NCBI RefSeq assembly: GCF_000210075.1 | Contig: NC_021017.1 | Span: forward strand, 2,128,917 to 2,192,916 | Source of the DNA: Bacteroides xylanisolvens XB1A | GTDB lineage: Bacteria; Bacteroidota; Bacteroidia; Bacteroidales; Bacteroidaceae | Direction of reading: 5' to 3' | Length of the DNA: 64,000 nucleotides | In this document: in pieces, positions 10,042-34,610 of the stretch | Position numbering within the stretch: the first letter of the stretch is position 1 | How the letters are laid out: the number at the start of each line of letters is the position of its first letter | The notes under the pieces: model-generated | Database searches by the model: none | What the model saw: the letters and a program-made list of their open reading frames with translations, nothing else | What the model was told of the DNA's origin: nothing | Made by a program: the position numbers and the translations under genes

Positions 10042-11529
10042 TCAGAACTGGAAATAAATAAACGGTTGAATTTCCGAACTCTTCATCTGAATAACCAGAT
10101 AAATCAAAGCGACCATCAATACTGCTTTTCCTAGGAACGGCAAACGGATCACTCCTCGACAAGCTACATTTTCCCAACTATCAGGAGCAAAATGAAGCAG
10201 GAAGCCAAGCAACATCAACGCAAATACTTTCCAATATCCTTCTAGTAATTGCGGGAACAGTTGCGGACGGAAAGTAGTGAATATCTGTCCCAGCATATCC
10301 ATTGAATTCTGAAAATCGGCATTACGGAAGAAAATCCAGCAGAAGCAGACGAAATGGAAAGTGATAATCACTCCAAACACACGCCGCCAACCGTGACTTT
10401 CCTCTCCTTTCTTACGCCCGGTGATAGACATCCACATTTTATGTAATGCCAGAGCTACTCCATGAAAAGTTCCCCAAAGAACGAAGTTCCAGGAGGCACC
10501 ATGCCACAGACCGCCCAAGAACATGGTAATTATCAAGTTGAGATATTGCCGGAATTTACCTTTTCGGTTTCCTCCCAAAGAAATGTATAAATAATCTTTT
10601 AACCAACTGGATAAAGATATGTGCCAACGACGCCAAAATTCCGTAATAGAGGCAGACTTATAAGGTGAATTAAAGTTGAGATTGAAATGGAAACCTAACA
10701 ATAAGGCGATACCGATAGCCATGTCGCTATATCCGGAAAAGTCACAGTAAATCTGCAAAGCATAACCATATACGCCCATCAGATTCTCAACACCGGAATA
10801 AAGAGTAGGGTTATCAAAAATACGTTCCACAAAATTGATACTGATATAATCGGATATGATGGCTTTCTTGAAAAGACCGGAAACGATCAGAAAAATTCCG
10901 CGTCCGAACATTTCCTGCGAGACGAATAAGGGTTTCCGGATTTGCGGGATAAAGTCGCGGGCACGCACGATAGGTCCTGCCACCAACTGGGGGAAGAAAG
11001 ATACGTAGAAGGCATAGTCCAAAAGATTGGTCAATGGTTTTATGTCTCTTCGGTAAACGTCGATGGTGTAGCTCAATGACTGGAAAGTGAAAAAGGAGAT
11101 GCCGACCGGCAGGAATATATCGAGAGCGGTAAATTCTCCTCCCATCAATGACGCAATCACTCCACCCAGAAAATTGGTATATTTGAAATAAGCAAGAAGT
11201 CCTAAATTAACTCCCAAACTCAAAGCGACCAATCCTTTACGTTTCCAATAACCCTCTACACGATCCATAAGTTGCGCAAGGAAAAAGTCGGCAACGGTGA
11301 CTATGGCAAGCAGGAAAAAATAGGTGCCGCTACTCTTATAGTAAAAATAATAGGAGAAGAGAGTAACAAACATGATACGGGCGGTGTATTTGCGTTGTAG
11401 CAACACATACACCACCATGAAAGCAGCGAACAACCAAAGGAAGATACCGCTGCTGAATATCATTGGCGCTTGCGGATCGTAGGTAAGTACCTCTTTCAGT
11501 CTACTGAAATCTATATCAATGGGAAACAT
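10042..11529 (-). CDS. MBOAT-family O-acyltransferase (AlgI-like)
   Basis: An integral-membrane protein of about 495 residues with roughly ten hydrophobic segments. FLGGLWHGASWNFVLWG holds the conserved MBOAT histidine, and YCDFSGYSDMAIGIALLLG and FWRRWHISLSSWLKDYLY are the other AlgI/DltB blocks. The family moves acyl groups, usually acetyl, across the membrane to an extracellular glycan. The start is uncertain: ATGs at 11535 and 11529 both overlap the end of the preceding SGNH gene, which implies translational coupling. The two SGNH proteins encoded just upstream would be its extracytoplasmic partners, as AlgJ/AlgX are for AlgI. The target polysaccharide is unknown. Confidence 0.85.
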   Translation of the reverse strand: MFPIDIDFSRLKEVLTYDPQAPMIFSSGIFLWLFAAFMVVYVLLQRKYTARIMFVTLFSYYFYYKSSGTYFFLLAIVTVADFFLAQLMDRVEGYWKRKGLVALSLGVNLGLLAYFKYTNFLGGVIASLMGGEFTALDIFLPVGISFFTFQSLSYTIDVYRRDIKPLTNLLDYAFYVSFFPQLVAGPIVRARDFIPQIRKPLFVSQEMFGRGIFLIVSGLFKKAIISDYISINFVERIFDNPTLYSGVENLMGVYGYALQIYCDFSGYSDMAIGIALLLGFHFNLNFNSPYKSASITEFWRRWHISLSSWLKDYLYISLGGNRKGKFRQYLNLIITMFLGGLWHGASWNFVLWGTFHGVALALHKMWMSITGRKKGEESHGWRRVFGVIITFHFVCFCWIFFRNADFQNSMDMLGQIFTTFRPQLFPQLLEGYWKVFALMLLGFLLHFAPDSWENVACRGVIRLPFLGKAVLMVALIYLVIQMKSSEIQPFIYFQF

Positions 11530-12433
11530 AGTCATTATATGCTTTGATAAGTGCTTGGTATAATAAATTTCCTTGCAGGATGTATCCTTCGGGTAAATAA
11601 TGTACATGATCGGGCCGCATCAGTTTTGCGTCCGTCCAGTTCGTGCAGGCACGGCGCTTCCCTCCGACTACATCGTACATATCCCACACGAGCAGACGAT
11701 GGTCTTTTGCATAACGACGAATGGTTTCCGCTGCTGTCGCTGTACGTGGATTGATGGCATACGTGCGTCTACGCCTTCGCTGCCGGAAACTTTCATAAGA
11801 ACCGGGAGGGGTAGTCAGAAGAATGGGTACGTTAGGAAGACTGTCGCGCAACAGTTTCACCAGTTCATCCATCTGATTGTAGTGCACATTTATATTATAA
11901 CGCCGGTTATGGCTTTCATTGGTTCCGAAAGAGAGAATCAACAATTCGGGCTTCAGGGCGGCAATTTCGGCAATACGATCCGGATGGGTAAAGGTAAGGC
12001 AAGTAGCTCCGTTGACGCCTTTATCTATATAAGAAACAGCACCGAAAGTTTCTGTCAAACGGGCACCGATGGTTTGAGGGTAGATATGTCCACGTACATG
12101 GCTGTCGCCAATATGAACGATACGGACTGTATCTTCGGAGAGTCCGGCACGCACCTGGCGAAGATGTTCGAAGACGGGAGCTAGCAGAGCGATACTGTCA
12201 ATAATCTCATTCCGACCGGTTTCGCGGAAAGCTGAAGGGAAGGATATTTGTACAGTGATCGTATCATTCGCCCAGTTCATTTCCCGTAAAGGCTTTATAA
12301 GTTTTGCGGTCTTTCCCAGTGGAGGACATACAGGGATACGGTCTTGCGCGATTGCTTCTGCAAGGAAACAAGGAACACTCAACATACCGGCGAGAATAAG
12401 AATAAAGACAGACTGCAGATTATTCTTGCTCAT
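11516..12433 (-). CDS. SGNH/GDSL hydrolase-fold protein, exported
   Basis: A 305-residue protein with a signal peptide (hydrophobic FILILAGMLSV, cleavage near IAQD). SGNH blocks are intact: VHIGDSHVRG (Ser111), LSFGTNESH, and DHVHYLPEG with the Asp275/His278 pair. Such proteins act as acetylesterases or acetyltransferases on glycans. The ATG at 12433 overlaps the stop of the gene before it, and its own end overlaps the MBOAT gene, so the three are almost certainly one transcript. It probably passes acetyl groups delivered by the MBOAT protein to a periplasmic or surface glycan. Confidence 0.8.
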   Translation of the reverse strand: MSKNNLQSVFILILAGMLSVPCFLAEAIAQDRIPVCPPLGKTAKLIKPLREMNWANDTITVQISFPSAFRETGRNEIIDSIALLAPVFEHLRQVRAGLSEDTVRIVHIGDSHVRGHIYPQTIGARLTETFGAVSYIDKGVNGATCLTFTHPDRIAEIAALKPELLILSFGTNESHNRRYNINVHYNQMDELVKLLRDSLPNVPILLTTPPGSYESFRQRRRRRTYAINPRTATAAETIRRYAKDHRLLVWDMYDVVGGKRRACTNWTDAKLMRPDHVHYLPEGYILQGNLLYQALIKAYNDYVSH

Positions 12434-13811
12434 AAGCACGCCTCCTGTCGTATTGTTCCTTACCATAGATCATCGTTTCATAAAGTAGTCCCGCCAAATG
12501 CTTGCCGCCACGGAAGTTTATATGCGTATAATCGTAATTTGCCATAGAAGGTTTGGCATGCACCAGTTTTGCCATGCTGCCTTCTCCGCCCATTGCTTCA
12601 AACATATTCCAAAAGGCGATGCCGCTTTCGGCTGCAATGTTCTGCTGATAACGAATCAGATTCTTCACACCGGGCATGGTACGAAGTTCACCGTTCTCGT
12701 TTTTAGAATCACGGTCGCCGACGCTCAACAACAGGATTCCTGCTTGTGGGAAACATTCTTTCAAATGCTCGATAGCTGTGAGCAGTCCTTTTTGATAGTT
12801 ATCATAATTGCGTCCCCGTTCGGTAGCTACATTCAAACCATATTCGAGGATAATGAGGTCGTAAGGACGTTGGCGGTTAAACTGTTTCAACATCTGTGAA
12901 GGAATGCCCCGCAGAGAAAGACCGGAACTGCCACGCAACGAGAAGTTGTCGAGAATGATTCCTTTCTTTCCATCCATTGCCAAACCATAGAACAATGTAG
13001 AGTCTGCACGGTCTACTGTCCAACGGATAGAGCCGATGCGTCCGTCTACCTGAATTTGCTGCAATCCGTCGGAAGGGCCTAATGAATAATTCTTGTTTTC
13101 TCCTTTGTTCACACGGGCAGAAAGGAGGACGGAGTCTCTGCTATGGAAGAAGATGGAGGCACGCTGGCAAGTATCGAGCAGGGAGGCATATTTATTTTGC
13201 CCGCGCAGTTCTACATAAGCTCCGTTGCGGGGAACGAAATAATGACCGGATATGCCTTGTTTCTTCTTATCGAAATAGACACTGTCTGTTACCGCATGAC
13301 TGGACCATCCGCCAAACGTATGTCGCACCGTAGGACGGTAACCGCTTGTCATGGAAGTGATGGTAACAAAACCTACACCACAACCGCCGAATTGTTTCTG
13401 AAGCATTTCGCGTAAGTCAGCCGTAAAGATATCCGCTTCGATAAAGGAATCTCCGAATACGGCAATACGCACCTGTTTGTCATCGGAGTCATCGGAAGAG
13501 ACACGGTCGAGTGCTTTATAAAAAGGAGTCATCCCCCGGAGAGTGGAATCACTGTAATCTTCAATGCAAGTCATACCTGTACGACAGGTATCTACAAAGG
13601 CAGGTTTTACAACAGGAGGCAAAGGGATGCTGTCCGAATCAGCTGCGGCAGTCTCTGATTCCGGATAACGAAGGTCGCTCAAAAGGTCTACACGCCTCAT
13701 CGTGTGCCCGTCAATAGTCAGCGCCGGAAGCCAATGAAGCCCGAGTAAGACTGCAAACACAATCAGTACGAACCACAACGAATATTTCAAATAATTCTTT
13801 ATTATCTCCAT
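12420..13811 (-). CDS. Membrane-anchored SGNH-fold protein of the O-acetylation operon
   Basis: A 463-residue protein with one N-terminal membrane helix (about residues 11-30) and a large extracytoplasmic part. IAVFGDSFIEADIF gives the SGNH block I serine at Ser122, LIILEYGLNVA is block III-like, and NYDYTHINFRGG supplies the C-terminal His block. Between them lies a beta-rich insertion (about residues 170-290) that may bind carbohydrate. It is the first gene of the three-gene operon and carries the repeat-containing leader. A role as the second acetyl-transfer component is inferred from context. Confidence 0.75.
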   Translation of the reverse strand: MEIIKNYLKYSLWFVLIVFAVLLGLHWLPALTIDGHTMRRVDLLSDLRYPESETAAADSDSIPLPPVVKPAFVDTCRTGMTCIEDYSDSTLRGMTPFYKALDRVSSDDSDDKQVRIAVFGDSFIEADIFTADLREMLQKQFGGCGVGFVTITSMTSGYRPTVRHTFGGWSSHAVTDSVYFDKKKQGISGHYFVPRNGAYVELRGQNKYASLLDTCQRASIFFHSRDSVLLSARVNKGENKNYSLGPSDGLQQIQVDGRIGSIRWTVDRADSTLFYGLAMDGKKGIILDNFSLRGSSGLSLRGIPSQMLKQFNRQRPYDLIILEYGLNVATERGRNYDNYQKGLLTAIEHLKECFPQAGILLLSVGDRDSKNENGELRTMPGVKNLIRYQQNIAAESGIAFWNMFEAMGGEGSMAKLVHAKPSMANYDYTHINFRGGKHLAGLLYETMIYGKEQYDRRRAYEQE

Positions 13812-13837
13812 CTTTACAAGTAGATATAGGCACTATT

Positions 13838-13921
13838 TTAGTTCTTGTTTTTACCCGGTGCCGAGCTACCTCTTCCTCGGTGCCGAACCATCTCCTCATC
13901 GGTGCCGGAGGAGGCCTTCAT
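13838..13921 (-). other. Possible 27-residue upstream ORF across the leader repeats
   Basis: ATG at 13921 to TAA at 13838, ending 26 bases before the first SGNH gene. The peptide is rich in Gly, Ser, Arg and Lys (starts MKASSGTDEE) and is not recognised. The open frame may be an accident of the GC-rich repeats. Confidence 0.2.
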
Positions 13922-13931
13922 CGGTGCCGGA
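13856..13931 (-). repeat. Four-copy 22-bp tandem repeat in the operon leader
   Basis: The core CGGTGCCG recurs at 13856, 13878, 13900 and 13922, exactly 22 bases apart, with spacers of related sequence (cyaycTCYTCmT). Three units are complete and the fourth is partial. They lie between a -7-like box and the start of the O-acetylation operon, so they are probably transcribed into the 5' leader. The period is not a multiple of three, which argues against a coding repeat. They could bind a regulator, mediate RNA folding, or be a slippage product. Confidence 0.8.
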
Positions 13932-13944
13932 CATTTTCAGGCTG

Positions 13945-13952
13945 CAAAGATA
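13945..13952 (-). promoter_or_regulatory. -7 promoter box for the O-acetylation operon
   Basis: The minus strand reads TATCTTTG, a perfect TAnnTTTG. No TTTG is found at the -33 position, so the promoter is partial or activator-dependent. Transcription would start near 13938, just before the tandem repeats. Confidence 0.5.
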
Positions 13953-14034
13953 GAGAAAAGCAATAAAAAAGAAGGGAGAATCTACATTATTTATGAGATT
14001 CTCCCTTTTTACTTATTTACATGCCGGACATCGG

Positions 14035-14328
14035 TCAGATCGTCCGTTCAATGTTCCACACAAATGCACGCAAACCTAATTGTTCGGTTTCCAAGTCCAT
14101 TATATGCAAGGTGTCGAGCAACGGATCGACTTTGCTATCGTCTACTATCGTCAAGATAGCCGAGCACATACTTGGCCAGGCATGGCTTCCGAAATGCGGA
14201 TCGCCTGTTTTCGAACCACGTCCCTGTACTTTCTCAAGGTACGTAAAACCACGACAACCCAAACGGTCGAGTAATGCCATGATTCGTTCGTAATAAGCCT
14301 GATCGAATGTTATCAATACTGATTTCAT
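14035..14328 (-). CDS. PII-like small protein of the RND operon
   Basis: A 97-residue cytoplasmic protein beginning MKSVLITFDQAYYERIMALL. The pattern of an alternating beta-alpha-beta repeat, with a glycine-rich loop (GRGSKTGDPHFGSHAW) between the halves and a second VDPLLDTLHIMDL helix, fits the ferredoxin-like PII superfamily. Histidines in the loop (DPHFGSHAWP) could bind a metal. It starts 14 bases after the efflux pump gene and is probably its last co-transcribed cistron. PII-like proteins next to RND exporters have been noted in other bacteria. I infer a role in sensing substrate or controlling the pump, without direct evidence. Confidence 0.6.
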   Translation of the reverse strand: MKSVLITFDQAYYERIMALLDRLGCRGFTYLEKVQGRGSKTGDPHFGSHAWPSMCSAILTIVDDSKVDPLLDTLHIMDLETEQLGLRAFVWNIERTI

Positions 14329-34493: not shown

Positions 34494-34610
34494 TTCTTTT
34501 AAATATTTAATTGTTTATTCATGAACTCAATTTGTTGCAGCCGCGATTACAGAGAGAAATTAATGTAATCCAAAAACAAAATCAAGATCATTGTGTAAGT
34601 TAAAGGTAAA

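Follow-up and report, generated by a model that had tools for sequence, protein, structure and literature searches.

A 22-bp repeat array in the presumed leader of a Bacteroides acyltransferase operon is probably one copy of a dispersed, palindromic intergenic family

Variable-number tandem repeats and phase-variable promoter repeats consist of tandem copies in a promoter-leader region. Other bacterial repeats are scattered between genes. REP elements and their BIME clusters are described, in portions of PMC2817692 and PMC3733652, as short dispersed extragenic palindromes in regularly spaced clusters, for which functions in mRNA stability, termination and the organisation of the chromosome have been proposed. 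The STAR elements of Staphylococcus appear, in a portion of PMC3532100, as GC-rich direct repeats between the genes of a low-GC genome, forming loci that expand and contract and whose function is unknown. REP and STAR elements are the closest known kinds to the array reported here, and the family to which it belongs shares with them that it is dispersed, intergenic and variable in its units. We found no published description of this family in the open-licence PMC literature, searched partly among the best-ranked entries only.

The array lies in a 64,000-nt stretch of the Bacteroides xylanisolvens XB1A genome (hereafter, the window), in which ORFs were called mechanically. Read along the minus strand, the order is a P-II-like gene, an inverted repeat resembling a terminator, the -7 box TATCTTTG, the array and an SGNH/SGNH/MBOAT operon (Table 1). 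Four exact CGGTGCCG cores are found on the plus strand at 13856, 13878, 13900 and 13922, spaced by exactly 22 bp. Ignoring spacing, this count compares with 0.66 expected and was reached in 1 of 100 shuffles, while CGGTGCCG-N14-CGGTGCCG pairs with up to two mismatches occur three times against 0.01 expected, a number reached by none of 100 shuffles. GC content is 64% in 13850-13932 and 42% in the whole window. By these counts the four GC-rich cores at 22-base spacing described in the original prediction are real, non-random and correctly placed. Its wording "exact 22-bp tandem repeats" holds for the spacing and the 8-bp core and fails for the intervening 14 bp, which are variable (2.4 copies at 83% in TRF). 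A division of the unit into 17+5 bp is preferable, and with it the array spans 13850-13932 and stops short of the -7 box. The prediction had also placed the cores between a perfect -7 box and the first gene and reported a 27-codon ORF crossing them, and both box and ORF are present. We agree with it, too, in rejecting a coding repeat, since 22 bp is not divisible by three and, between species, the ORF peptides differ.

Promoters of B. thetaiotaomicron have elements at -7 and -33, according to part of PMC7366714; by eye, no clear -33 element was seen at the window promoter. Placement of the array in a transcribed leader, as originally proposed, is likely given that TATCTTTG precedes the first operon gene in 23 loci.

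Table 1. Features at the array locus (positions are those of the window)
Feature	Position	Strand	Basis or remark
Third operon gene, MBOAT membrane O-acyltransferase	10042..11607	-	Pfam
Second operon gene, GDSL-like lipase/acylhydrolase	11516..12466	-	Pfam
First operon gene, SGNH/GDSL-like	12420..13811	-	Pfam match below curated cut-off
133-nt stretch from -7 box to start codon, contains array	13812..13944	-	leader measurement
27-codon upstream ORF over array	13838..13921	-	peptide not conserved in the other two array-bearing leaders
Repeat unit 1, TTTACCCGGTGCCGAGC, 17 nt, degenerate arms	13850..13866	+	register from family units
Repeat unit 2, CTTCCTCGGTGCCGAAC	13872..13888	+	sequence and family unit register
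Repeat unit 3, CCTCATCGGTGCCGGAG	13894..13910	+	falls within R2 match
Repeat unit 4, CTTCATCGGTGCCGGAC	13916..13932	+	falls within R2 match
-7 box TATCTTTG, presumed operon promoter	13945..13952	-	found in 23 leaders (window and 22 relatives)
Likely terminator of upstream gene: inverted repeat GGGAGAATCT/AGATTCTCCC with runs of A and T	13964..14010		similar stretches in many orthologs
Upstream gene, P-II-like protein, adjoins AcrB-type efflux gene	14035..14328	-	Pfam

A search of the window's own genome for two cores at 22 bp with up to two mismatches returned 14 matches, three of them the window's, and is weak by itself because a reversed control returned 15. Two models separate the family from background better: R1 (43 segments from arrays judged real; the arrays at L011, L012, L014, L034, L036, L038 and L041 were excluded, and the one at L005, though in the R1 list, contributed no segment) and the wider R2 (35 of 44 segments, chosen partly for palindromicity, plus five window-type segments). 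E-values from these models, and from R3 (48 of 60 pattern-derived segments plus three others), are rough. In the own genome R2 gave 77 matches at E≤1 and 47 at E≤0.01, the latter merging to 36 loci that include the window's; with R3, for which 150 of 2790 candidates were scored, there were 157 overlapping matches at E≤1, spread over both strands. The exact CGGTGCCG core was seen by eye in an array at six own-genome loci, namely the window and near 3516726, 3726624, 3767301, 3780608 and 5953803.

Throughout the family the unit measures 22 bp and comprises a 17-nt palindrome, most commonly of the type GTTYC-N7-GRAAC, and 5 further nucleotides; GTTTCTCGGTGAGAAAC, GTTCCTCGGTGAGGAAC, GTTTCAAGGCTTGAAAC and GTTCCTTTTAAAGGAAC are other forms of the palindrome. 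The window's sub-family is a GC-rich variant centred on CGGTGCCG in which the inner pairs are broken. Two arrays in relatives (L107 and L112) hold CGGTGCCG units together with perfect-palindrome units in one shared register, which ties the window array to the palindrome family. The arms covary: 58 cells are changed on both sides, compared with 35.3 in shuffles (0 of 500 as high); because the selecting pattern already sets three of the seven pairs and partly a fourth, only the others count as free evidence. Neighbouring cores of the window sub-family could pair with one another, G-U included, in 97% of cells, with no covariation. As a control we stepped outward from the arrays by 22 bp to units in no listed match and scored them for TT..AA ends, which on the two sides were present in 18/24 and 12/28 units after one step, 12/31 and 5/32 after two, and 1/36 and 5/36 after three. 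One own-genome array of four units at 22 bp (L012 1501-1590, genome position 5486880) has variant cores such as CGGTGACG and is a weak R2 match (E 0.11).

Placement of the family was examined at 40 loci, the 36 above and four weaker ones. Thirty-six lie outside any ORF of ≥80 aa and four touch one; this is far from random, as about 90% of the window sits inside such ORFs. The gaps that hold the 36 intergenic loci are tandem in 22 cases, convergent in 11 and divergent in three. In the tandem context the best match runs along the genes at ten loci, against them at 11 and is unclear at one (p = 1), and there is thus no sign that one RNA strand matters. Sixteen of the 22 tandem loci are nearer the end of the upstream gene (hand count; p = 0.05), and convergent loci outnumber divergent ones 11 to 3 (p = 0.06); with these p values and the small sample of gaps in the window, we make no claim of a placement bias toward gene 3' ends. 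Three palindromic arrays (L158 1397-1822, L193 1447-1866 and L159 1475-1791) are embedded in a longer dispersed repeat of ~300-420 bp with 85-93% identity, and some arrays may therefore move or be copied as part of larger DNA segments. Another three (L174, L177 and L178, around 1368-1714) share ~296-329 bp at 85-88% identity.

As far as searched, the family is essentially confined to Bacteroides, judging from sequence matches. A strict pattern scan of named species genomes, in which records near the window genome were possibly left out, yielded 15 stretches, all 15 in Bacteroides (B. faecis 5, B. rodentium 6, GM023 2, B. acidifaciens 1, uncultured Bacteroides 1). Across the genus, R1 matched 22 of 149 genomes at E≤0.01. 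Across the taxonomic family, 23 of 298 had R2 matches at E≤0.001: 22 belong to Bacteroides, and the remaining genome, from a different genus, has a single weak match. Across the class, R3 at E≤1e-4 matched 4 of 296, of which three are Bacteroides and the fourth, weakly matched, belongs to another family within the order. These genome counts are lower bounds, because searches over 40 genomes use stricter filters. An early search of 60 genomes matched 12 and is weak evidence, the reversed control having matched in 7 of 60. At four B. rodentium loci (L057, L058, L065 and L068) CGGTGCCG-form arrays have an inverted copy in front of them, which yields long hairpins of the CTCCGGCACCGGGGAA..TTCCCCGGTGCCGGAG type.

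Set beside REP elements, the family likewise consists of short palindromes with covarying arms, extragenic at 36 of the 40 loci, whereas the window's units differ from one another and have interrupted arms. REPs measure 20-40 bp in the part of PMC3733652 that treats them, compared with a 17-nt palindrome here; they usually exceed 100 copies per genome, and for the family the own genome gives 36 loci at E≤0.01 and 157 overlapping R3 matches at E≤1. Most carry a GTAG or CGTC tag at one end, whereas the window array has no tag per unit: in 13850-13932, the only array searched for tags, CGTC is absent from both strands and GTAG occurs on the minus strand only, in one spacer. BIMEs are built in alternating order and the family mostly in direct 22-bp tandem order. 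Finally, REPs are associated with a RAYT (Y1 transposase) gene flanked by the repeats. The own genome has two Y1_Tnp matches, and no family units were found in the 1.5-kb flanks of either gene, for which reason we reject a RAYT-driven REP in this genome. One of these loci (L225, ~3774279) has an IS200-type Y1 transposase gene beside a repeat of 60-odd bp, ending CCTGATAGTTT, in some six tandem copies; the other (L226, ~5433078) encodes a RAYT-like Y1 protein (243-aa open frame) with its own adjoining short palindromes, of the GGATTTGTAATCC type and unlike the window family. CGTC-tagged repeats have been reported in Bacteroidetes (in part of PMC3733652), so other REP types do exist in the phylum.

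With STAR elements the family has in common GC-rich intergenic direct repeats and changes in unit number. STAR, however, is defined in the relevant part of PMC3532100 by a 14-bp core, T(G/A/T)TGTTG(G/T)GGCCC(C/A), with ≥40 bp between copies, whereas here an 8-bp core or 17-nt palindrome recurs at 22 bp, and on inspection the window array shows neither the STAR consensus nor its spacing. A CRISPR array has near-identical repeats of 24-48 bp and unrelated spacers; the window core is 8 bp long and the 14-bp gaps are partly conserved, which sets it apart from that class. The array is filed as neither REP nor STAR, because it lacks the tag, an association with either transposase gene of this genome and the STAR consensus.

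To compare the same locus in relatives, we used 35 hand-chosen genomes (26 with family matches, eight others and the window genome). The P-II-like protein found matches in 31 of them, and 30 loci, the window's included, were examined. The succession of P-II-like gene, terminator-like stretch, TATCTTTG and first operon gene is kept at 23 of the 30, i.e. in the window and 22 relatives (the near-identical G009 and G059 counted as two). Among these relatives two have the array, with four and three cores, and 20 lack it; the operon therefore exists without the array in most of them. The array-bearing leaders measure 133 nt with four cores in the window, 134 nt with four in G001 (taken as B. faecis) and 110 nt with three degenerate cores in G146. 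Eighteen relatives have short repeat-free leaders, of 8-34 nt in the 16 measured (G031 and G079 were judged by eye). Two more (G139 and G092, loci L208 and L210) have array-less leaders of ~110 nt with a different insert of ~85-90 nt, containing a second TATCTTTG, and look as if a second promoter had been added. At the remaining seven loci the downstream sequence is different (G030, G044, G082, G140 and G032) or the contig ends (G056 and G089). In trees of the upstream and downstream flanks the window genome (G000) groups with array-less relatives, G127 being nearest in the downstream tree, and the presence of the array requires at least two changes. In the promoter segment the window genome is 93-94% identical to G127, which lacks the array, and to G146, which has it. 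An array at one place in three species, with at least two changes, could mean selection or exchange of the leader, and the history of the array here may be one either of repeated loss or of leader exchange.

Copy number does change, as the original prediction suggested, between species and in whole units, and the observation is limited to that level. At the window locus the three array-bearing species have 4, 4 and 3 cores. A sister array at 3516726-3516808 has four ordered units in the window genome, G021, G127, G086 and G012 and two in G044, whose flanks are 97-98% identical to those of G021; entire units can thus be lost within little divergence. Between G021 and G086 the sister array is 96% identical (71/74) compared with 84% in the 400-bp flanks (p = 0.003), which suggests function for some copies; between G021 and G012 the values are 93% and 84-86% (p = 0.08). 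Closer genomes compared with G021 show no clear excess over the flanks (G000, 100% vs 98-99%; G127, 95% vs 94-95%; G044, 30/30 vs 97-98%). Some copies of the family may thus be functional, on this pattern of conservation. At the window array itself, comparison with B. faecis shows no conservation excess (78% vs 79% and 83% in the flanks).

These observations bear on what the array might do for the operon. A structured leader or RNA switch, one of the roles originally considered, would fit an array located in the presumed leader, and the antisense strand would fold strongly (z -4.71). The sense leader RNA, however, folds like its shuffles (z -0.27, 66 of 200 as good), tandem-context loci show no orientation bias, and Rfam at gathering scores, with five matches in the window, has none within 13850-13952. 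We reject this very improbable role because of the sense-strand folding and the lack of orientation bias. (An S4-Bacteroidia ribosomal protein leader recognised by Rfam at 34538-34570 on the minus strand is an ordinary known element.) Equally improbable is an attenuator in which translation of the 27-codon ORF would control the operon. That ORF stops 26 nt ahead of the operon start codon, and in the other two leaders with an array ATG ORFs, of 30 and 20 codons, end at or beside the start codon, but each of the three species has a different peptide, and an array-bearing leader is absent altogether from 20 of 22 relatives. A slippage-prone contingency locus, in which frequent copy change within a strain would phase-vary surface acetylation through leader length or upstream ATGs, we consider improbable. 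Tandem leader copies in species-variable number are indeed shared with phase-variable repeats, whole units differ between species (4, 4 and 3; 4 vs 2 in the sister array), and there are 2-4 upstream ATGs in the three array leaders and none in three short leaders tested. Against it, the units within the array are imperfect and mutually different, unlike fast-slipping repeats, and the sister array keeps four ordered units across five species.

Among the alternatives a binding-array role ranks first, in strength as well as in interest, even if we rate it as rather unlikely. Here a putative Bacteroides DNA-binding protein would occupy each palindrome, and with 22 bp making two helical turns its dimers would line up on one face of the DNA, acting as a roadblock just downstream of the promoter at this locus and as a nucleoid-type site elsewhere. 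The palindromic units with covarying arms, the strict 22-bp period and a sister array whose conservation exceeds that of its flanks in one comparison, perhaps in a second, all speak for it. On the other side stand the spread of loci over tandem, convergent and a few divergent gaps, the 20 of 22 relatives that keep the operon layout without the array, and the broken inner pairs of the window's own units. A regulator array specific to this operon, as first envisaged, finds no support in the data: the family occupies 36 own-genome loci in all gap types, and absence of the repeats from most relatives, named in advance as counting against a regulatory role if the operon were normally expressed, is what we find in 20 of 22. 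On both grounds, dispersal and absence from relatives, an operon-specific leader element is rejected. A bolder version, in which the arrays are a genus-specific chromosomal element whose palindromes, phased at two helical turns, are cooperatively bound by a putative Bacteroides protein in tens of gaps between genes to organise DNA or insulate neighbouring operons, with the one copy behind this promoter tuning the acetylation operon, seems to us unlikely.

We conclude that the window feature is probably one copy of a dispersed intergenic Bacteroides family and mainly a passenger in the leader, not a dedicated switch. The family unit is the 22-bp element of a 17-nt palindrome (arms most commonly GTTYC/GRAAC) and a 5-nt spacer, which recurs head to tail in two or more copies and in four at this locus. 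Whole units are gained and lost over evolutionary time, as the differences between species show, presumably by slippage or unequal exchange. One such array sits directly after the conserved -7 box, in what is presumed to be the 5' leader of the acyltransferase operon. There it lengthens the leader (133 nt vs 8-34 nt in most relatives) and adds upstream ATGs. Any effect on translation would be mild at most; the predicted unpaired state of the start-codon region is 0.45 in the window and 0.57 and 0.42 in the other array leaders, and 0.46-0.48 in three array-less relatives. The family as a whole may have a chromosome-wide, REP-like role, given that some copies elsewhere look constrained.

The question thereby shifts from one leader to the whole family, with tens of loci in a single gut Bacteroides genome, strict 22-bp phasing and covarying palindromes. 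If the arrays are selfish or neutral, they would be a marker for copy-number evolution and a caution against taking leader repeats for switches. If they bind protein or shape mRNA ends, they would be a trait of an entire, important gut genus.
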